Assembly: GCA_021777365.1 (NCBI GenBank)
Contig: JAJYDP010000223.1
Location: 1-7,702 of the forward strand
Origin: Chloroflexota bacterium
Lineage (GTDB): Bacteria; Chloroflexota; Limnocylindria; Limnocylindrales; CSP1-4
DNA: 7,702 bases
Direction: 5' to 3'
Position numbers and translations under genes: made by a program. Shown here in pieces: positions 1 through 7,702 of the stretch; within the stretch, counting starts at the first letter, position 1, and each line of letters opens with the position of its first letter. The notes below the pieces were generated by a model. The model made no database searches. It saw only the letters and a list, made by a program, of their open reading frames with translations, and was not told the origin of the DNA.

Positions 1-618
1 CACGCCCGCGACCTGGTCGCGGTATCGCGTGAACGTGGCTTCGAGGGCCGGCAGGTCGTTCCAGGGGACAGGAATCACCGTCTCGGCGACGGCGCGGGGG
101 ATTCCTCCCGACGAGAAGATCGGCTGCGAGGGGTGGCCACCGGCGTTGGCGGCGTCGATGTCGCGGACCAGCGAGTTCAGCATGGCGTAGTCGCTGCCAC
201 CATTGAAGTGGCCGTCGATCTTGATGATGATGTCGCGGCCGGTGTGCGCCCTCGCCAGGCGCATGGCCGTCGCCACGGCTTCGCTGCCCGACGCGACGAA
301 GCGAACCTGCTCCGCCGAGGGGACGATCTCACTGATCCGGCTCGCGACGGTCTCGCCGAGGCCGGTCTCGTAGCCGATGACGACGCCGGACTCCAGACGC
401 GAGCGAAGTGCATCGAACACGGCCGGGTGGGCGTGGCCAAGCACGGTGCTGCCGTGCGCCATGAACATGTCGATCAGAACAGATCCGTCGGCCGTCTCGA
501 GATACGGGCCATGCGCCCTGCGCACCGTAAGATGCTGGCCCGTATAGGGGTTGATGCGAAAGGCCGATGAGATGCCGCCCAACAGACTCGTGCCGGCACC
601 CTCGCTGACCGTGACCAT
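1..618 (-). CDS. Class III PLP-dependent aminotransferase, glutamate-1-semialdehyde-aminomutase-like (N-terminal part)
   Basis: The frame is open from an ATG at 618-616 to the window edge, giving the first 206 residues of a protein that in this family is usually about 430-450 long. Visible family features are an N-terminal segment like INPYTGQHLTVRRAHGPYL, a substrate-loop region with GSTVLGHAHPAV, the cofactor-phosphate motif FVASGSEAVATAMRLARA and then IIIKIDGHFNGG, matching the IKxxGxYHG region of GSA aminomutases. The Schiff-base lysine lies in the missing half. The start is supported by AGGAGAGG a few bases upstream (about 625-631 on the minus strand). It is divergent from the LacI repressor and shares the operator-bearing spacer, so it probably belongs to the same catabolic regulon. 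It is unlikely to be heme-pathway HemL, because no heme gene is nearby and the context is sugar-type catabolism. The substrate is unknown. Confidence 0.85.
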   Translation of the reverse strand, partial: MVTVSEGAGTSLLGGISSAFRINPYTGQHLTVRRAHGPYLETADGSVLIDMFMAHGSTVLGHAHPAVFDALRSRLESGVVIGYETGLGETVASRISEIVPSAEQVRFVASGSEAVATAMRLARAHTGRDIIIKIDGHFNGGSDYAMLNSLVRDIDAANAGGHPSQPIFSSGGIPRAVAETVIPVPWNDLPALEATFTRYRDQVAGV

Positions 619-669
619 ACGCACCTCTCCTCGTCCCCTGTGCTCCCGCGCGCCCACGGCAGCCCTGTA

Positions 670-683
670 TGGGAGCGTTACCA
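670..683. promoter_or_regulatory. LacI-type operator 1
   Basis: TGGGAGCGTTACCA is an imperfect palindrome centred on CG, with 10 of 14 positions symmetric, in the style of LacI/GalR-family operators. It closely matches the second site at 746-759. It lies just upstream of an extended -10-like TGCTACTGC (689-697), so bound repressor could block a promoter reading towards the repressor gene. It also lies between the two divergent genes. Confidence 0.6.
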
Positions 684-745
684 CAGCATGCTACTGCGCG
701 AGGTCAAGAGCCGTTGTGGGTTTGACGCATCCCCGTACCATTGCA

Positions 746-759
746 TGGGATCGCTACCA
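746..759. promoter_or_regulatory. LacI-type operator 2
   Basis: TGGGATCGCTACCA has the same half-sites (TGG..., ...CCA around CG) as the site at 670-683; both are followed by CA. It ends 4 bp before the GGAGG ribosome binding site of the repressor gene. Spacing between the two sites is 76 bp, which would allow co-binding or looping. Autoregulation by the adjacent repressor is the simplest reading. Confidence 0.6.
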
Positions 760-774
760 CATCGGAGGCTGCCA

Positions 775-1860
775 GTGACCAGCGGTCGTGCAGGGCGCGC
801 GGACCGAGTCCGTCCCGAGATACCGGCTGTCCGGCGGCCGACGGTGGCGGACGTCGCTCTCCGCGCCGGGGTGTCCCAGTCGACCGCGTCGCGCGTGCTG
901 TCAGGCCGGGGCTACGTGTCGAGCGACGCGGCCGGGCGCGTGCGCCGCGCCGCGGAGTCGCTCGCCTATGTGCCGAATGACATCGCACGAAGCCTGAAAG
1001 GGCGCTCCACCCGCGTGATCGGCATGGTGATCGATGATCTGTCGCAGGCGTTCTTCGCCGAGGTCGCCGCCGGGATCGAGGCGGTGCTCCGCACGCACGG
1101 CTTCACGATGATCCTCGCGGGCACGGAGGGCATCTCGGCGAACGAGTCGGATGCGCTCGAGCGGTTCGCCGCGCTGCGCGTCGAAGGGATCGTGCTCGCA
1201 CCTGCCGCGCCGGAGTCGCCCTCGATCGTCAGGCGCGCGATCGGCCGCGGGATTCCCATCGTCGAGGTCGATCGGCGCGCCGCGCCGGGAGCGTGCGATG
1301 CCGTGCTGATCGAAAACGAACGGGGCGGCTATCTGGCGACCCGCCACCTTGTCGAACTCGGTCATCGTCGCATCGCCCTGTTCGGCACGCCGTTCACGAC
1401 CGGCGAGGGGCGGCTGGCGGGCTATCGCAGCGCGCTCACCGAAGCCGGCATTCCCTTCGATGAGCACCTGGTCTCGCGCGTGACATTCCATCCATCGGAG
1501 CCAGAGGTTGCCGCGGGATGGCTATTGGATGCGAATCCGGATGCCACGGCCATCTTCGCAACCAACAACATCCTGACCGGCGGGGCCCTACAGGCTCTGC
1601 GCATCCGTGGGCGCCGGGTGCCCGACGAGTGTTCGCTGGTCGGCTTCGACGACGTTCCCTGGATGTCGTTCGTCGATCCGCCTGTGACAACGATCGCGCA
1701 GCCCGCCCGGGAGATCGGCGAACAGGCAGCACGCCTCCTGCTGGATCGGATCGACGGTCGTCTGGCCGGTCCGCCCACGACGCGGTACCTCGAGCCCTGG
1801 CTCGTGGTTCGCGGGTCGACCGGTCCCGCCGCGAGGCTCGCCCGAGAGTCTGTGGCATGA
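775..1860 (+). CDS. LacI/GalR-family transcriptional repressor
   Basis: The protein is 361 residues with a GTG start at 775, chosen because GGAGG (764-768) sits 6 bp upstream; the in-frame ATG at 640 would place both operators inside the gene. An N-terminal extension of about 20 basic residues precedes the helix-turn-helix (about 23-42, PTVADVALRAGVSQSTASRV). The hinge helix follows (about 64-79, AYVPNDIARSLKGRST), then a periplasmic-binding-protein-like effector domain starting RVIGMVIDDLSQAFFAEV and containing the C-terminal SLVGFDDVPWMSFVDPPVTT block. Length and domain order are normal for the family, and the gene looks intact. Its stop overlaps the kinase start (ATGA), so the two are co-transcribed and probably translationally coupled. 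The effector is probably the kinase substrate or a related sugar, which is inference. Confidence 0.93.
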   Translation: MTSGRAGRADRVRPEIPAVRRPTVADVALRAGVSQSTASRVLSGRGYVSSDAAGRVRRAAESLAYVPNDIARSLKGRSTRVIGMVIDDLSQAFFAEVAAGIEAVLRTHGFTMILAGTEGISANESDALERFAALRVEGIVLAPAAPESPSIVRRAIGRGIPIVEVDRRAAPGACDAVLIENERGGYLATRHLVELGHRRIALFGTPFTTGEGRLAGYRSALTEAGIPFDEHLVSRVTFHPSEPEVAAGWLLDANPDATAIFATNNILTGGALQALRIRGRRVPDECSLVGFDDVPWMSFVDPPVTTIAQPAREIGEQAARLLLDRIDGRLAGPPTTRYLEPWLVVRGSTGPAARLARESVA

Positions 1861-2792
1861 CTGCGCCTTTGGTCGTTACGCTCGGTGAGGCGCTCGTCGA
1901 TCTCGTGCCGGTCGGCGACACGGAGTGGACGTTCATCGCGCGGCCCGGCGGAGCGCCGGCGAACGTCGCCGTGGCCCTGGCTCGACTGGGCACCTCGGTG
2001 GCGTTCATCGGACGCGTCGGTCGCGATGCGCTTGGCCGTCTGGTCGCGCGCGCACTTGGAGACGCCGGAGTTGATCTCCGGGCACTGCAGATCGACGAGG
2101 TGAGGCATACCCCCCTTGCCATTGTCGTGCCGGCTGCGCGCGATCTCGACCGGTTCCTGATCTACCGATCCGAGACGGCAGACGGGGCGCTCGAGCTCAG
2201 CGCCGAGGCCTCGGCACTCGTGGCGACGGCGCGTGTGTTGCACCTCGGCACCATCTCGCTGGCCAGCGAGCGCTCACGGGCGGCCACGCATGCAGCCGTG
2301 GAGACGGCACGCAGCCACGGTGCCATCGTGTCGCTCGACATGAACCTGCGACCCTCAGCCTGGGAAGCACCAGACCGCATGCTTGCGGAGGCTCGCGCGC
2401 TGCTGCCCGCCGCACATATCGTAAAGCTCACGCTCGATGAACTTCGCGCCCTCAGTCTTGATACAGAAACACTCCTTCAAACCGGCGCGCGGGTGGTACT
2501 CGTGACCGAGGGAGCCGTGGGCGCCACGGCGTTCACACGAGATGGCGCGATCCGGGTCTCCGCACCCGACGTCCACGTGGTCGATACGACGGGCGCGGGC
2601 GACGCCTTCGACGCCGCGTTCCTCCATTTCGTGCTGTCGACCACCGATCCGTTCGGGCGAGGCGTCGAGTCCGGCCTCCGGGCCGCCGTGCACGCCGGTG
2701 CCCTCGCGGTCCAGACGACGGGTGCGATGGAAAGCCTGCCAACGCTCGACGACCTGGCCGCGGCTCTGCGTGGGGCAACCGTCGGCCAGTGA
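1857..2792 (+). CDS. PfkB/ribokinase-family carbohydrate kinase
   Basis: The protein is 311 residues, starting at the ATG that overlaps the repressor stop by 4 bp. PfkB features run in order: an N-terminal strand [14 protein letters not shown], the substrate-lid glycines [15 protein letters not shown] (31-45), [11 protein letters not shown] (50-60), the D-x-N-x-R motif [10 protein letters not shown] (Asp161, Asn163, Arg165) and the anion-hole/catalytic signature DTTGAGDAF (243-251), with Asp249 as the expected catalytic base. It phosphorylates a sugar or sugar acid with ATP in the cytoplasm. The overall style is closest to fructokinase or 2-keto-3-deoxygluconate kinase, but substrate cannot be read from sequence alone. 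After the signature it has DAAF where many members have a glycine (DxFxxG), a mild deviation. It is the last gene of the repressor operon. Confidence 0.92.
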
Positions 2793-3469: not shown

Positions 3470-3579
3470 CGTCATGGGTCCGCAAGACGATCCAATACCG
3501 CCCCTGCGTCTCGCGTCGACCCTTCGGGCCGTCGCACGCGACATCCATCGCCATCTCGCACTTGGGAGTGCATGCGGGA

Positions 3580-3993
3580 ATGAGTGAGAACCGGCTACGG
3601 GCGAACGCAATCGGCGTGCCCGGGGCCATCGCGATGTCGATCGCCATCATGGCGCCGGCCGCCGGCATGATGTTCGTCCCGCAGGTCGTGGCGGGCCATG
3701 CGGGGGCGGCGGTCCCCCTCGTCTACCTCATCAGCCTCGTCGGTTCGGTGTTCGTGGCGAACACGATCGTCGAGTTCTCGAAGCGCCTGGTCCACGCGGG
3801 ATCCTTCTACGGCTTCAACAGCGCCGGCCTCGGCGGCACCTTCGGCTTCCTGTCGGGCTGGCTCCTGTTCGCGGGCTACTTCGTCTTCTACCCGCAGAAC
3901 CTGCTGGCCTTCGGCCCATTCACCTCGACCGTCCTGCTGGACCACTTCGGAATCCACATCAGCTGGGTCGTCTTCACGGTCTTGGCTGGCGCG
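3580..3993 (+). pseudogene. APC-superfamily permease, N-terminal fragment cut by an IS110 element
   Basis: About 138 codons of an amino-acid/polyamine-type transporter. The start MSENRLRANAIGVPG is followed by a first membrane segment with the glycine-containing AIAMSIAIMAPAAGMMF. A second segment follows (about residues 43-65, VPLVYLISLVGSVFVANTIV), then the family-like HAGSFYGF, a third segment (GFLSGWLLFAGYFVFYP) and the start of a fourth (ISWVVFTVLAGAL). Full members have about 12 segments and 450-500 residues. The match ends at the predicted right border of the IS at 3994, beyond which the frame stays open only because it runs antisense through the transposase. Start choice is uncertain: ATG 3580 has GGGAG 11 bp upstream, and in-frame GTG 3568 and ATG 3466 are alternatives. 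The C-terminal part is not found on the other side of the insertions (7077 onward), so the gene is dead in this window. Confidence 0.8.
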
Positions 3994-5307
3994 CTGACCC
4001 GAAATGACCCTGGACGATCGACCGCGATCAGGCAGCAGCGGCCGGGGGGAGCCCGAGCCTGGTGGCACGGCGGGTTCGCCGAGGGACGTAAGGGTGACCT
4101 GCTGGCCGAGCCGTTCGAGCTGGCGGACGAGGCGGCGGATGTGCGCGTCGGCGGCATGGCGCCGGAGCAGGAACTCGGCGCCGAGCTCGGCGTAGGGCTG
4201 GCGGCGCTCGAGCACGTGGTAGGCGATGACGAGCAGCGAGTGGGCCACCGCGAGCGCCGCCCGCCCGGCACCCCGCCGGCCGGCCAGGCGGGCGTACTGG
4301 GCGGCGAGGTAGGTGCGCTTGGCGCGCGCGGCCGCGTGGGCGGCCTCGACGAGTGCGCTGCGCAGCCAGCGATCGCCCGGACGGGCCCGGGAGGACTTGC
4401 GCCGCCCGGCCGACTCGTTGACGCCTGGGCAGACCCCCGCCCAGGAGGCGAGATGGGCCGCGGAGGGGAAGCGGTCCATGTCCGCGCCGGTCTCGGCGAT
4501 GAGCACCTCGGCGGTGCGCCGGCCCACGCCCGGGATGGTCAAGAGCAGCCCGAGCGCCTCAGCGAAAGGGACGAGCTCCCGCTCGATCTCGGCATCGAGC
4601 CGCTCGACGGTCGCACCCGCGGCGTCGATGCGGGCGAGCATCTCGGATACCAGGAGGGCGTGGTGCGCCTCGAAGTGCCCGTGGAGCGCGTCGACGAGTT
4701 CCGGGATCTTGCGGCGCAGGCGTCCTCTGGCCAGCTGGGCAGTGGCCGCCGGGTCGTCGACGCCCGCGGTGAGCGCGGCCAGCATGGCCCGCCCGGAGAC
4801 CCCCAGGATGTCGGTGGCGACCGCGCTGAGCTTGATCCCGGTGTCCTCCAGGAGCTTCTCGAGACGCTGCTTCTCGCGCGTCCGCTCACCCAGCACCGCC
4901 GTCCGATAGCGGGTCAGGTTGCGCAGCCGGCGGATCGGCGGCGGCGGCACGAAGGAGGGGCGCACGAGGCCACACTCGACGAGCTGCGCGATCCACTCGG
5001 CGTCCCGAACGTCGGTCTTGCGGCCCGGGACGGCCTTCAGGTGGTGGGCGTTGAGCAGCCAGCAGGTGCACGTGTCCTCGAGGAGATAGAAGGGCGGCTT
5101 CCAGTAGGTGCTCGTGGCCTCCATGCCGACCAGGCTGACGCCCTCGCTGACCAGCCAGTCGCGCAGCGCGAGCAGGTCGCGGGTCATGGTCCGGAACGTG
5201 CGCGTCACGCTGCGCCGCCCGCCCTGCCCGTCGCTGGTGCGCACGCAGGCGGTGAGGGTCCGCTTGCCGATGTCGAGGCCCGCGCAGCGCTCGATGATGG
5301 TGTCCAT
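3595..5307 (-). CDS. IS110-family DEDD transposase (copy A), running out of the element
   Basis: The ATG at 5307 is preceded by GGAGGA with a 7-bp gap. The RuvC-like DEDD domain shows Asp12 (CAGLDIGKR), Glu63 (LVGMEATSTYW), Asp99 and Asp102 (KTDVRDAEW). A helical linker covers about 140-250. The Tnp domain follows with the helix-hairpin-helix IPGVGRRTAEVLIAETG (258 on) and SWAGVCPGVNESAG, whose Ser299 (or Ser305) is the likely nucleophile. It aligns almost without gaps to copy B over about 410 residues. Copy B then stops, but copy A has no stop. Its frame crosses the element end near codon 437 and continues to a TAG at 3595, giving 570 residues whose last ~133 are antisense permease sequence. 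The catalytic part looks intact; the tail is very charged and unlikely to be functional. The enzyme would recombine the element guided by its RNA. Confidence 0.88.
   Translation of the reverse strand: MDTIIERCAGLDIGKRTLTACVRTSDGQGGRRSVTRTFRTMTRDLLALRDWLVSEGVSLVGMEATSTYWKPPFYLLEDTCTCWLLNAHHLKAVPGRKTDVRDAEWIAQLVECGLVRPSFVPPPPIRRLRNLTRYRTAVLGERTREKQRLEKLLEDTGIKLSAVATDILGVSGRAMLAALTAGVDDPAATAQLARGRLRRKIPELVDALHGHFEAHHALLVSEMLARIDAAGATVERLDAEIERELVPFAEALGLLLTIPGVGRRTAEVLIAETGADMDRFPSAAHLASWAGVCPGVNESAGRRKSSRARPGDRWLRSALVEAAHAAARAKRTYLAAQYARLAGRRGAGRAALAVAHSLLVIAYHVLERRQPYAELGAEFLLRRHAADAHIRRLVRQLERLGQQVTLTSLGEPAVPPGSGSPRPLLPDRGRSSRVISGQRASQDREDDPADVDSEVVQQDGRGEWAEGQQVLRVEDEVAREQEPARQEAEGAAEAGAVEAVEGSRVDQALRELDDRVRHEHRTDEADEVDEGDRRPRMARHDLRDEHHAGGRRHDGDRHRDGPGHADCVRP
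3994..4007 (-). repeat. Right-end signature of IS110 copy A
   Basis: The plus strand reads CTGACCCGAAATGA. The corresponding right end of copy B at 5523-5537 reads CTGACACGAAAATGA, so they differ by one substitution and one extra A. CT is the proposed core dinucleotide. Confidence 0.6.
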
Positions 5308-5522
5308 GATCCGGTCCTCCGCGCACGACGATCCAACCTCGTCGCTCGGAGGGGCCTCATCTTGGCGGAGTCTGACCCACGTGCTCGCAGCAACAATCCG
5401 GTGCGCCCGAGGCTCCCGCGTCCGACTGAAACACGGGCTCGCAGCACCACAGAGGGACGACGTCGCCGAGCGACGCCCTATCTTTCATCCTCCGGGGCGG
5501 CCCGCCAAGGGCCACGCGATGA
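3996..5522 (-). mobile_element. IS110-family element, copy A (downstream of the tandem pair)
   Basis: Borders are predicted by comparison with copy B. The right end reads, on the minus strand, TCATTTCGGGTC before an AG core (CT at 3994-3995 on plus). The left end begins TCATCGCGTGGCCC after the AG core at 5523-5524. The predicted length is 1,527 bp, reasonable for IS110. No terminal inverted repeats or target duplication beyond the core dinucleotide are seen, as expected for this family. It contains one transposase and an upstream non-coding RNA candidate. The right end lies in the permease; the left end abuts copy B. Confidence 0.7.
5347..5522 (-). ncRNA. Candidate bridge RNA (seekRNA) of IS110 copy A
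   Basis: This non-coding stretch lies between the left end and the transposase leader. It aligns with the same region of copy B while the coding regions carry no comparable RNA. Stems in transcript order: GUGGCCC with GGGCCGC (5515-5509 with 5503-5497), loop 5 nt; CGUCGC with GCGACG (5475-5470 with 5466-5461), loop 3 nt; then a conserved AGUCGGACGCGGGAGCCUC run leading into a stem GGAGCCUC with GAGGCCCC (5416-5409 with 5358-5351, one mismatch) that closes a 50-nt internal loop. In IS621 of this family the equivalent upstream region gives a ~177-nt RNA with target- and donor-binding loops; size and place agree here. The big loop holds GGGUCAG, identical to this element's right end. Ends are inferred. 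Confidence 0.6.
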
Positions 5523-5537
5523 CTGACACGAAAATGA
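5523..5537 (-). repeat. Right-end signature of IS110 copy B, at the A/B junction
   Basis: The plus strand reads CTGACACGAAAATGA, matching the right end of copy A at 3994-4007. It therefore belongs to copy B, and copy A's left end starts directly after the CT core at 5523-5524. Confidence 0.6.
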
Positions 5538-5563
5538 TGCTGAGGTGGCACGAGCGGTTTGGG

Positions 5564-5598
5564 GCGGGGCGGAGCCCCGCGCGGGACACAGTCCCGCG
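5564..5598. other. Two back-to-back perfect hairpins after transposase B
   Basis: GCGGGGC (5564-5570) pairs with GCCCCGC (5574-5580) around GGA. Immediately next, GCGGGAC (5581-5587) pairs with GTCCCGC (5591-5597) around ACA, extendable by the 5580/5598 pair. They lie 15 bp beyond the transposase stop. They may stop transcription, but no U-run follows, so a structural role at the right end is as likely. Copy A has no equivalent. Confidence 0.5.
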
Positions 5599-5612
5599 TT
5601 GTGGTGGTTCAG

Positions 5613-6848
5613 TCAGGCTGCCTCGCACGGTTCGATGGTTACGCGGTAGCCGAGCGCCTCGATCTGGCGGGCCAGGCGACGGGCGTGCGCCTCCGGGCGA
5701 CGCTTGGCGAACCAGTCGGCCCCCAGGTCCTGGTAGGGGACGTGGCGGTCGAGGATGTGGAAGGCGGCCACCAGCATGGAGTGGGCCACGGCCTTGCGCG
5801 CCTTGGCGTGGCCGAGGCGGCCGCGGAGCCGGCTGAACTGGGCGCCGAGATAGGTGCGCTTCCCGTGTCCGGCGGCTTCGGCGGCCTCGGCGAGGGCGGT
5901 GCCCAGCCACTTCGAGCCCTTCCGGGTGCGGCCCGAGCGGCGCTTGCCGGCCGACTCGTCGAGACCCGGACAGAGCCCCGCCCAGGAGGCCAGGCGGGCC
6001 GCGCTGCCGAAGCGCGTCATGTCGACGCCGATCTCGGCGACGAGCGCCTCCGCGCTGCGTCGGTCGACGCCGGGGATCGTGTCGAGCAGGGCGAGCTCAG
6101 CCGCGAAAGGGGCGATGACCCGGTCGACCTCCGCGCTCAGGCGTCCGATCGCCTCGTCGAGGTAGTCGAGCTTGGCCAGGATCTCGCCCACGAGCAGCGC
6201 GTGGTGGCCGCTGAAGCGGCCGTTCAACGCCTCGCGCAGGGCGGGCAGCTTCGCGCGCAGCCGGCCCCGGGCGAGCTCGGCGAGGACCTCGGGATCGCGG
6301 GTGCCGGCCACCAGCGCGGTGAGCATGTCGCGGCCCGACCGACCCAGGATGTCGGTCGCCACCGAGCTGAGCTTGACCCCTGCGTCCTGGAGCACCTTGT
6401 CGAGCCGCTGCGCCTCCCGGCCGCGCTCCTCGATCTGGGCCTTGCGATAGCGGGTGAGATCGCGCAGCTCGCGGATCGGCTTGGGTGGCACGAAGGAGGG
6501 GCGCACCAGGCCGTGCTCGCAGAGCTGGCAGATCCACTCGGCGTCGAGGACGTCGGTCTTCTTGCCGGGCACGTTGCGCAGGTGGCGGGCGTTCAAGAGC
6601 CAGCACTCGATGGCGTCCTCGAGCAGGTAGAAGACCGGCCGCCAGTACACCCCGGTCGACTCCATGCCGACGAGCGTGACGCCCATCGCATCGAGCCAGT
6701 CGCGCAGCGCCAGCACGTCCGTTGTCATCGTCCCGAACGTACGTGTCTCCTGGTCGCGTCGCCCTCCCTTCCCCGGCGTCCGCACGCAGGCGACGACGGT
6801 GTCCTTGTGGACGTCCAGCCCGCAGCAGCGCTCGACCATCACGTCCAT
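5613..6848 (-). CDS. IS110-family DEDD transposase (copy B)
   Basis: The protein is 411 residues. The start is ATG 6848, which aligns with copy A's start and has GGAG 6 bp upstream; a GTG at 6875 would add nine residues without a better site. Catalytic residues of the RuvC-like domain are Asp12 (CCGLDVHKD), Glu63 (LVGMESTGVYW), Asp99 and Asp102 (KTDVLDAEW). The linker carries two helical stretches (about 135-250). The Tnp domain has IPGVDRRSAEALVAEIG (258 on) and SWAGLCPGLDESAGKRRSG, with Ser299 and Ser305 both shared with copy A as nucleophile candidates. The C-terminus, YRVTIEPCEAA, is followed by a TGA at 5613. The gene looks complete. In this family the enzyme works with an RNA made from the upstream non-coding region to recombine a circular donor with a chosen target. 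Confidence 0.93.
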   Translation of the reverse strand: MDVMVERCCGLDVHKDTVVACVRTPGKGGRRDQETRTFGTMTTDVLALRDWLDAMGVTLVGMESTGVYWRPVFYLLEDAIECWLLNARHLRNVPGKKTDVLDAEWICQLCEHGLVRPSFVPPKPIRELRDLTRYRKAQIEERGREAQRLDKVLQDAGVKLSSVATDILGRSGRDMLTALVAGTRDPEVLAELARGRLRAKLPALREALNGRFSGHHALLVGEILAKLDYLDEAIGRLSAEVDRVIAPFAAELALLDTIPGVDRRSAEALVAEIGVDMTRFGSAARLASWAGLCPGLDESAGKRRSGRTRKGSKWLGTALAEAAEAAGHGKRTYLGAQFSRLRGRLGHAKARKAVAHSMLVAAFHILDRHVPYQDLGADWFAKRRPEAHARRLARQIEALGYRVTIEPCEAA

Positions 6849-6897
6849 GTCCGTCTCCGTTCCGGCCCCGATCACCGACGTCGGTCAGGGGGTCGCC

Positions 6898-7074
6898 CGG
6901 AGGAGCCTCATGCCGTGGAATCTGACACCCGTGCTCGTGGCAACACTTCGGTGCTCCCGAGGCTCCCGCGTCCGACTAGCCCGCGAGCTCGCGCGCACCA
7001 AGGAGAACCCGACGTCGCCGGGCGGCCCGCGACCATTTTCCCTGCCTTGTGCGCGGCCCGCCGGGCCACGGCGA
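6898..7074 (-). ncRNA. Candidate bridge RNA (seekRNA) of IS110 copy B
   Basis: It has the same place, length (177 nt) and stem order as the copy A candidate. GUGGCCC pairs with GGGCCGC (7069-7063 with 7059-7053) with a 3-nt loop instead of 5. GUCGC pairs with GCGAC (7033-7029 with 7018-7014) with a 10-nt loop instead of 3. GGAGCCUC pairs perfectly with GAGGCUCC (6966-6959 with 6909-6902) and closes a 49-nt loop. Between the two copies the stems are kept while loop sizes and the segment from about 7034 to 7052 diverge, as expected for RNA with a variable target-binding loop. The large loop holds GUGUCAG, identical to this element's right end at 5523-5529. RNA ends and promoter are not determined. 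Confidence 0.6.
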
Positions 7075-7076
7075 CT

Positions 7077-7180
7077 AGACCGAACTTCCAGCCCTGATCC
7101 AGGCTGATCCGGCCCCTTCCACGTTCAGATCGTGCCCCAATCGTGCTGTGGCAGACTGCATGAAGTAGACAGTAATAGGC
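7077..7180. other. Spacer between IS110 copy B and the IS1634-like gene
   Basis: No gene is seen. It does not continue the permease: joined to the permease frame it meets a stop within about 11 codons. It holds an imperfect 18-bp palindrome CAGCCCTGATCCAGGCTG (7089-7106, 14 of 18 positions symmetric) and a CTGATCC direct repeat (7094-7100, 7104-7110). The left end of the IS1634-like element must fall between here and 7181, but its terminal repeat cannot be placed without the other end. Confidence 0.5.
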
Positions 7181-7208
7181 TTGACTTCTGCGCCCGGATG
7201 TGCATACT
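7181..7208 (+). promoter_or_regulatory. Candidate promoter of the IS1634-like transposase
   Basis: TTGACT (7181-7186) and CATACT (7203-7208) are 16 bp apart. The predicted start point, about 7215, coincides with an ATG, so the message may be leaderless or have a 24-nt leader to the ATG at 7239. Confidence 0.5.
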
Positions 7209-7214
7209 GGTCGC

Positions 7215-7702
7215 ATGACTAGGGCACGGACCGGGGCCATGCACGTAGTCAAGGTGGTGAGCCGCCAGCGGGGCCGCGCGTACACGAGCGTGCTGCTGCG
7301 CAACTCGTATCGCGAGGGCGGCAAGGTGCGCAAGCAGACGCTCGCCAACCTGTCCCACCTGCCCGAGCCGTTGATCGAGCTCATTCGCGGCTGGCTGCGC
7401 GGCGAGCGCTACCTGGCCGCGGGTGACGCGGTCTCGATCGTGCGCAGTCTGCCCCACGGGCACGTCGCCGCGGTCTTGGGCATGTGCCGCGCCCTGGGGC
7501 TCGAGACGCTCCTGGATCGACGGCCGTCGCGGGAGCGTAGCCTCGCCCTGGCCATGGTGGTGGCCCGCCTCCTCGCCCCCTGCTCCAAGCTCGCCACCAG
7601 CCGCACGTTGGGGCAGAGCACGCTGGGGTCGGTCCTCGACGTCGCCGACGCGAGCGAGGACGAACTCTATGGCGCGCTCGACTGGCTGCTCGCCCGTCAG
7701 GC
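7215..7702 (+). CDS. IS1634-family (IS4-like DDE) transposase, N-terminal part
   Basis: The frame is open from ATG 7215 to the window edge (162 full codons). The N-terminus, with VVSRQRGRAYTSVLLRNSY, KQTLANLSHLPEPLIELIR, LPHGHVAAVLGM, LLDRRPSRERSLALAMVVA and DEDELYGALDWLLARQ-like blocks, matches the start of the long (about 550-600 residue) IS1634-type transposases. The catalytic DDE residues lie beyond the edge. The ATG at 7239 (MHVVKVVSRQ) is the more usual family start; 7215 would be favoured if the transcript is leaderless. No frameshift or stop is seen. It points away from the IS110 pair. Confidence 0.85.
   Translation, partial: MTRARTGAMHVVKVVSRQRGRAYTSVLLRNSYREGGKVRKQTLANLSHLPEPLIELIRGWLRGERYLAAGDAVSIVRSLPHGHVAAVLGMCRALGLETLLDRRPSRERSLALAMVVARLLAPCSKLATSRTLGQSTLGSVLDVADASEDELYGALDWLLARQ

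Follow-up and report, generated by a model that had tools for sequence, protein, structure and literature searches.

Two adjacent IS110-family elements, A and B, lie head-to-tail on the minus strand of the window (the whole 7,702-nucleotide stretch of Chloroflexota DNA analysed here), and upstream of each transposase gene a bridge-RNA gene is predicted (Table 1). The two transposases are 61% identical, and matches to Pfam PF01548 and PF02371, as well as to NF033542 above its cut-off, point to a DEDD RuvC-like domain and a Tnp domain with the catalytic serine. Residues D21, E72, D108, D111 and S308 of the B transposase (numbered from the GTG at 6875), as aligned to IS621, are invariant across 25 aligned sequences. 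A predicted structure of this protein (model m165b751f2dbc) shares its fold with IS621 and ISCro4, the best PDB match being the IS621 entry 8wt6 (TM 0.68 by target length). The transposase frame of A has no stop before the end of the element and continues into the flanking DNA. Guide matches and the pattern seen across the family were used to place the ends of A and B, and only for the relative ISArsp3 is an empty site known; the window offers no simple empty site because the left flank of B and the right flank of A do not make one continuous gene.

Table 1. Predicted features of elements A and B (positions in the window; motifs in element orientation)
Feature	Position	Strand	Basis or remark
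Transposase frame of A	3595..5307	-	Pfam DEDD_Tnp_IS110 and Transposase_20; NCBIfam NF033542 on 4081-5307; frame
Right end of A: left-donor half GGGTC (3996-4000) and core AG (3994-3995)	3994..4000	-	exact 7-mer equal to loop 5372-5378; relatives bear out the type of end
Element A between its two core copies	3996..5522	-	left core 5523-5524, right core 3994-3995; guide matches and family pattern
Bridge RNA of A	5341..5474	-	outer stem 5466-5474/5341-5349; donor stem 5409-5416/5351-5358
Donor guide of A, GGGTCAG (AG after five guide bases)	5372..5378	-	exact match to right end of A
Donor-loop stem-loop of A	5381..5394	-	structure count on family
Target guide of A, GTTTCAG	5426..5432	-	then handshake TC (5424-5425), equal to first two bases of A left end
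Target-loop stem-loop of A	5435..5448	-	structure count on family
Right end of B: GTGTC and core AG; also left target of A	5523..5529	-	preceded by CATTTTC (right-end motif)
Element B between its two core copies	5525..7074	-	left core 7075-7076, right core 5523-5524; guide matches and family pattern
Transposase of B	5613..6848	-	Pfam/NCBIfam, alignment to IS621, structure model
Bridge RNA of B	6892..7026	-	family alignment and structure count
Candidate left-end guide of B, CCACGGC	6912..6918	-	complementary to GCCGTGG, 7066-7072 of left end; marginal in family
Donor guide of B, GTGTCAG	6922..6928	-	exact match to right end of B
Target guide of B, GGGCTAG	6976..6982	-	then handshake TC (6974-6975)
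Region of 5' (right-target) guide of B	7001..7010	-	family covariation with right target; B segment does not fit present right flank
Left target of B, GGTCT and core AG	7075..7081	-	6/7 to target guide of B

Relatives were gathered by their transposases and afterwards filtered by the presence of an RNA of the A/B type; both strands of every locus were read, and a half-RNA in L001 and its duplicate in L075 were excluded. The RNA lies upstream of the transposase gene in A, B and the aligned relatives. Its predicted structure is well conserved: across 46 sequences 86.2% of the cells are paired, double changes occur in 22 of 29 pairs, and none of 500 shuffles is as good. For the target loop a TGGTGC/GCACC pairing was considered and rejected, since, judged by eye and uncounted, it seemed inconsistent from relative to relative; the counted structure uses other pairs. 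A search of Rfam gave a single sub-threshold match, located elsewhere than the bridge RNAs, while no relatives were found in the viral contigs searched and no near match to 3500-5600 was found in phage records. By analogy with IS621, this RNA would be made, bound by the recombinase and used to direct strand exchange.

An earlier, sequence-only reading had observed that a 7-mer at the right end of each element recurs in a loop of that element's RNA, and that one base separates the two right ends and the two loops alike; it took the 7-mer for a donor-binding guide co-evolving with its end. These observations are confirmed. Each 7-mer is found just twice on the plus strand, CTGACCC at 3994 and 5372 and CTGACAC at 5523 and 6922; the minus strand has one further CTGACCC, at 4911 inside the A transposase gene, and no CTGACAC. 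Family alignments place both loop 7-mers at corresponding positions, each following GAGCACG and one base. The interpretation is likewise supported by the relatives, where the loop 7-mer does not change independently of the right end. The clade comprises 92 distinct RNAs, 90 of them testable; the donor guide is found exactly in the element's own right side in 72 of these, with 36 different 7-mers, against 218 of 7816 for the guides of other elements, these being counts over related elements and not independent events. None of 200 permutations gave as high a covariation between right end and donor-loop guide (47 of 52 elements left after 90% collapse). The 18 inexact cases comprise 15 with one mismatch and three with two or three. 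In nine of the 15 the pairing itself is imperfect, because eight lie at the right-end motif ATTT[TA]C and the ninth (L086r) at a variant, AATCTTC; ATTTTC adjoins the right-end guide match in many elements. In a Mycobacterium clade (L013a, L041, L044) the guide reads GGGTCCG against GGGTCAG.

A single shared 7-mer would by itself be weak evidence, because shuffles often share some 7-mer with the loop side. One alternative is that two GC-rich stretches came to share it by chance and both copies inherited it, and mononucleotide shuffles of the right end in the window do share some 7-mer with the loop side about 15% of the time (3117/20000 for A, 2995/20000 for B). The case rests instead on the matched position in both copies and on the relatives: the fixed position, the same base differing in both copies, and the 72 of 90 relatives with 36 7-mers refute chance, to which we give practically no weight. 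It is very improbable, too, that the 7-mer is a target guide recognising flanking DNA that abuts the end. In its favour, target and donor loops resemble each other in IS621-like systems and the core is common to both. An element present in seven copies in one genome keeps its right-end 7-mer GAATCAG while its flanks change, all copies having GGTTCAG on the left and GCG on the right, as the guides predict, and no copies of one element with a right-end 7-mer changing by site were seen. Moreover, the left flank matches the other loop. The empty site of ISArsp3, a clade member, ends the element at AG, a dinucleotide core common to target and donor with no other duplication; it lacks ATGTC, which therefore belongs to the element. 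This one empty site leaves the ends where they had been placed, and the seven-copy element, with its differing flanks, gave a second check on the ends in relatives. The original proposal is amended in one respect: the last two bases of the 7-mer (AG in element orientation, CT on the plus strand) belong to the core that the target has too, which leaves five free. The two bases after AG were considered as part of the core and rejected, as they are not common to the right flanks; they are read as handshake bases. The 7-mer in the second loop is very probably a donor guide that reads the right end of its own element, consisting of five variable bases and the AG core.

In the first loop of the predicted RNA, the 3' side holds the left-target guide and the 5' side a short guide for the right target; two handshake bases there match the first two bases of the left end. 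The left-target guide is found exactly in the element's own left flank in 66 of 90 cases, as compared to 63 of 7912 for the guides of other elements; the 24 inexact cases include A and B, with one mismatch each. For the right target and the 5' guide none of 200 permutations was as high in 4-base runs, and the first three guide bases all match in 11 of 53 versus 67 of 2756; in neither A nor B does this guide match the right flank that the element has now. The two RNA bases after the target guide equal the first two inside the left end in 57/66 versus 562/4290, rows being counted without preselection on the first handshake base, while the corresponding handshake of the donor loop is weaker (20/70 versus 365/4830). 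The handshake bases thereby supply part of the second, left-end half-guide that the sequence-only reading had failed to locate; the rest of it stays marginal in the family, a candidate 3' of the 7-mer being equalled by 1/200 permutations with 4-base runs, 14/60 with 3 and 5/60 with 2. The 5' side of the donor loop was examined across the family for covariation that would indicate another donor guide, and none was found. Of 66 elements, 37 have a GAAAA motif 32-40 bases inward of the left core, and 29 lack it. On the whole we consider it very likely that A and B each encode a bridge RNA upstream of a DEDD/serine recombinase, with a donor guide, target guides and handshake bases.

The juxtaposition of the two elements may itself reflect the guides. 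The target guide of A fits the right end of B at six of seven positions but the left flank of B at only four, suggesting that A entered the right end of B. The opposite order, in which B arrived at the left junction of A, draws on the 6/7 fit of the B target guide to its own left flank, a fit that would be true in either order; we consider this order unlikely, given the guide of A and the relatives of another sublineage that sit on the right ends of other IS110 elements. Members of that sublineage (L013b, L117, L118, L169, L187) keep their own donor guide GGACCAG and have the target guide GGGTCAG, GCGTCAG or CGTTCAG, each identical to the right end of another IS110, a different one each time, or of an IS110 derivative of 165 bp. 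The IS110 right-end motif is present at all five sites seen here, with a 7/7 guide match in four. Tandem pairs could also form without a target guide, for instance from a dimer circle or by a recombinase attracted to any right-end motif. Such an origin is suggested by L009, in which two tandem copies have identical bridge RNA and transposase gene and copy b sits on the right end of copy a with a target guide matching only 4/7, by L200, which lies on ATTTTCCTATCAG with a guide match of 5/7, and by the many other sites per genome that a 7-base guide alone would have. Against it stand the three different target guides in the right-end sublineage and the guide equalling the occupied end in four of five sites, and we hold it to be just as unlikely as the reversed order. 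Entry of A into the right end of B by its guide, together with the sublineage, raises the tentative possibility that IS110 elements parasitise each other, with an RNA supplying the address. The target guide of the sublineage would then have been reset, the insertion of A on B would be a separate instance, and the joint variation of donor guide and right end in the clade might in part reflect escape from guided parasites of this kind.

The clade, whose members in this analysis come from Actinomycetota, Chloroflexota, Burkholderiales and a few others, would extend IS621-type donor guides to larger recombinases, a different core and a swapped guide order. If active, its members would provide bridge systems in which the core is AG and the cargo-to-core orientation is reversed. 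The right-end sublineage would be a natural RNA-guided element addressing the donor site of another RNA-guided element, and it makes testable the idea that donor sequences diversify under pressure from guided elements.

Donor guides are known from work on IS621 published in 2024 (Durrant et al. 2024, PMC11208160; Hiraizumi et al. 2024, PMC11208158). As in IS621, the RNA lies upstream of the transposase and has a target and a donor loop, the core takes part in every pairing, the right-end guide is identical in sequence to the right end, a handshake with the non-cognate DNA follows the 3' guide, and the recombinase fold is related (8wt6). In contrast, the clade transposases are about 410-420 aa (the solved IS621 chain has 328), the core is AG where IS621 has CT in element orientation, and the guides for right end and left target lie on the 3' side of the loops, whereas those of IS621 lie on the 5' side. 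The comparison with IS621 proposed earlier thus shows another layout, the right-end guide being placed here on the 3' side of the loop, with AG as its last two bases. ISEc21, an IS110 member with a seekRNA (Siddiquee et al. 2024, PMC11187229), likewise has an upstream non-coding region and is known to insert into another IS, namely IS3-family transposase genes (PMC11187229); its top-strand match is 3' of the bottom-strand match, whereas here it is 5', as in IS1111-group seekRNAs (PMC11187229). The IS1111 group differs in an RNA usually downstream of the transposase (PMC11187229). Its members have subterminal inverted repeats of 7-17 bp; the short sequences noted here are ATTTTC beside the right-end guide match and GAAAA inside the left core, and no long repeat was noted. 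The right target pairs with the 5' guide in the target loop, and the left target and right end pair with 3' guides; this predicted order is the reverse of that in IS621 and ISEc21 and is like that of IS1111, although the RNA is upstream. ISArsp3, annotated in an Arthrobacter sp. FB24 plasmid (L130), belongs to the same clade and has the same RNA, the 7-mer ATGTCAG both as donor guide and at its right end, and an AG core by its empty site, but a different target and host and a transposase 49% identical to that of B.

The sequence-only reading held that a 7-mer in the loop of each predicted bridge RNA equals the right end of its own element, and that the single base distinguishing the right ends of A and B, the two head-to-tail IS110-family elements of the window, also distinguishes their loops; this proved correct. 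On the plus strand each 7-mer occurs only in the right end and loop of its element, and a 7-mer scan of the window returned one extra copy of CTGACCC, at 4911 on the minus strand, which is the strand of both elements. Written in the direction of the elements, the right end of A is GGGTCAG and that of B is GTGTCAG, with the same letters in the respective RNAs. The in-window match alone is modest evidence because a right end shuffled by mononucleotides still has some 7-mer in common with the loop side in 3117 of 20000 trials for A and 2995 of 20000 for B. It is the relatives that decide the matter.

A single scan of genome contigs yielded 72 relative loci, to which 15 from plasmid records and further ones from genome searches were added; both strands of every locus were then searched with a profile of the upstream RNA region, and the 174 hits were reduced to 110 rows once identical RNA-plus-flank rows were removed and to 92 distinct RNAs. 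The half-RNA of L001, interrupted by another insertion, and its duplicate L075 were left out, and the guide tests used one row per distinct RNA, 90 of the 92 having enough sequence on the tested side. In the donor loop, GAGCACG-N is followed by the 7-mer taken here as the donor guide. This guide is identical to the right end of the same element in 72 of 90, with 36 different 7-mers among these matches, as against 218 of 7816 for other elements' guides in the same right sides (49/60 against 99/3548 in a smaller, earlier set). Five bases of the right-end 7-mer are variable; most elements have AG as the last two, and the L012 group has TG. When RNAs were collapsed at 90% identity, right ends and loops of the relatives, the comparison by which the earlier reading proposed to check itself, were found to change together (covariation 2.60; highest permutation 0.51, 0/200 as high). 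We regard it as highly probable that the loop 7-mer is the donor guide for the element's own right end, and the identity is a clade-wide rule of an already known mechanism.

The 18 non-exact guides comprise 15 with one mismatch and three with two or three. Eight of the former lie at the right-end motif ATTT[TA]C (L013a, L041, L044, L120, L121, L129, L183r, L185r) and a further one, L086r, at the variant AATCTTC; among the remaining nine, L042, L052 and L069 come from elements that are cut or interrupted, and in L199r, where the anchor was misplaced, the guide by eye is CGTTCGG against the end CGTTCAG. Opposite the right-end AG core the donor guide reads CG or GG in L041, L044, L013:194 and L199; L013a, L041 and L044 form one clade, and both L013a and the L199 host, with their non-AG guides, carry a guest on their right ends.

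Comparison with an empty site leaves the right end at the donor-guide match. The clade member ISArsp3 of Arthrobacter sp. FB24 occupies AAGTG-AG-TTTCTC ... ATTTTC-ATGTC-AG-AGGGG, and the version of the same region free of it, on a Pseudarthrobacter phenanthrenivorans plasmid, reads AAGTG-AG-AGGGG. The core of ISArsp3 is AG, its right end coincides with the match to the donor guide, and ATGTC is part of the element.

Each transposase frame of the window has both Pfam domains of the IS110 family and exceeds the cut-off of the NCBIfam model "IS110 family RNA-guided transposase". Five residues (D, E, D, D, S) never vary among 25 aligned transposases, and they align with the catalytic residues of IS621 named in PMC11208158. 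An AlphaFold model of the B transposase (mean pLDDT 86.9) has as its best PDB matches IS621 chains in the bridge-RNA complex (22% identity; TM 0.68, by target length), and ISCro4 comes next. The transposases of A and B are only 61% identical, and the pair is therefore not a recent duplication. By reading, the continuation of the permease fragment that is cut at the right core of A does not lie beyond B; the left target of B may lie at the edge of the IS1634-like element.

Features of the window and of relative loci, by coordinates
Sequence	Coordinates	Feature	Remarks
Window	1-2792	Class-III aminotransferase, LacI-type regulator, PfkB sugar kinase	
Window	3343-3999	Amino-acid permease fragment	AA_permease, E 1.9e-6; cut at right core of A
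Window	3595-5307	Transposase frame of A	No stop inside the element; crosses right core into flanking permease fragment
Window	7078-7702	Start of IS1634-like transposase	NF033559, below cut-off
L001	1245-2880	Insertion of ~1.6 kb with inverted-repeat ends	Lies within a bridge-RNA target guide; apparent CTTAG duplication
L009	432-3313	Tandem pair, identical RNA and transposase gene	Second copy on right end of first
L044	6412-6440	Right end	Carries 14-mer TGTTTTCCGGTCAG twice in tandem
L132	1251-1665	165-bp IS110 derivative without transposase	Present twice
L133	1501-1668	165-bp IS110 derivative without transposase	

The predicted RNA consists of an outer stem, a target loop with an inner stem-loop GGNGC...GCCC, and a donor loop whose inner stem-loop, GTTGC...GCAC, resembles it. 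Five helices, drawn up by reading sequences and then counted on 46 of them, have 86.2% of cells paired and changes on both sides in 22 of 29 pairs; the covariation score is 0.337, as against 0.212 in shuffles (0/500 as high) and at most 0.153 when helix partners are slid.

The left flank equals the element's own target guide exactly in 66 of 90 (63 of 7912 for other elements' guides), A and B being among the 24 non-exact cases. In 57 of 66 the two bases after the guide are the first two inside the left end (562 of 4290 with other elements). These handshake bases occupy the same place as the handshake guide of IS621, which pairs with partner DNA after exchange according to PMC11208158, and by analogy would do likewise here; at the corresponding place in the donor loop, agreement with the right target is seen in 20 of 70 (against 365 of 4830). 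For the right target, covariation is seen with the stretch that lies 5' of the first stem-loop and ends in CT (0/200 permutations as high for 4-base runs), and the first three bases of this guide all fit in just 11 of 53, versus 67 of 2756. In one genome seven copies of an element share left GGTTCAG and right GCG with differing outer flanks; the target guide of its RNA is likewise GGTTCAG, and ahead of the first stem-loop this RNA reads CGC-CT, complement of AG-GCG. Beyond its first two bases the left end covaries only marginally with the segment on the 3' side of the donor guide, which in B contains CCACGGC, complement of the left-end GCCGTGG; judged from sequence, this segment may be the left-end half-guide that the earlier reading had missed.

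The left target of A is the right end of B, GTGTCAG after ATTTTC, and the target guide of A (GTTTCAG) agrees with it at 6/7 positions, versus 4/7 with the left flank of B; we somewhat favor the view that A entered there by its guide. A guide match with at most one mismatch, together with the first handshake base, located 87 left ends. Five of them (A, L013b, L187, L117, L118; 5/81 in an earlier set) directly adjoin an IS110-like right-end motif, and by eye L200, which is L169 in its full extent, makes a sixth with a guide match of only 5/7. Across all loci, a set itself rich in IS110, 143 of 95274 AG sites follow the motif. The tree groups the rows of L013b, L169 (same RNA as L187), L117 and L118 as a single clade with support of 100/95, apart from A; this clade has a constant donor guide, GGACCAG, and target guides GGGTCAG, GCGTCAG and CGTTCAG. 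L013b and L187 each occupy the right end of a neighbouring IS110, GGGTCAG in the case of L013b and CGTTCAG in that of L187; the neighbour of L187, in the same genome, belongs to a different clade. L118, the same insertion as L136, lies on the right end of a 165-bp L126-type derivative ending TATTTACGCGTCAG, and L117, at a different place, has exactly these 14 bases in common with L118 on the left. The 165-bp derivative has left flank AGGTCAG in L118 and one L132 copy, and its right end is TATTTACGCGTCAG, or TATTCACGCGTCAG in L133. It is quite likely that this sublineage, new as far as could be seen, consists of IS110s sitting on right ends of others. A 7-base guide alone would not choose right ends so consistently; recognition of ATTTTC by the recombinase, or selection, must help. 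The L009 tandem counts against a purely guide-based account because its target guide matches the occupied right end at only 4/7. The 41-base left flank of L128, a clade member from Caballeronia, is found again next to an IS3-family gene on one or more other plasmids, and L128 may therefore target an IS3 element.

The target-loop RNA of the clade, like that of IS621, runs 5' guide-CT, stem-loop, 3' guide-AG-handshake. Its right target appears to be bound by the 5' target-loop guide, and the left target and right end by 3' guides, so far as sequence indicates, and the guide order is very probably swapped relative to IS621. According to PMC11187229, ISEc21 has the guide order of IS621 and the IS1111 members tested have it reversed. 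No paper on the swapped layout was recognised by title or abstract among the matches listed, most subscription papers and preprints lying outside the search, and the arrangement, which may occur among the six diverse elements drawn in PMC11208160, is new as far as could be seen. On the simplest account the complex would work as in IS621, with the donor site joined the other way round relative to the gene cassette.
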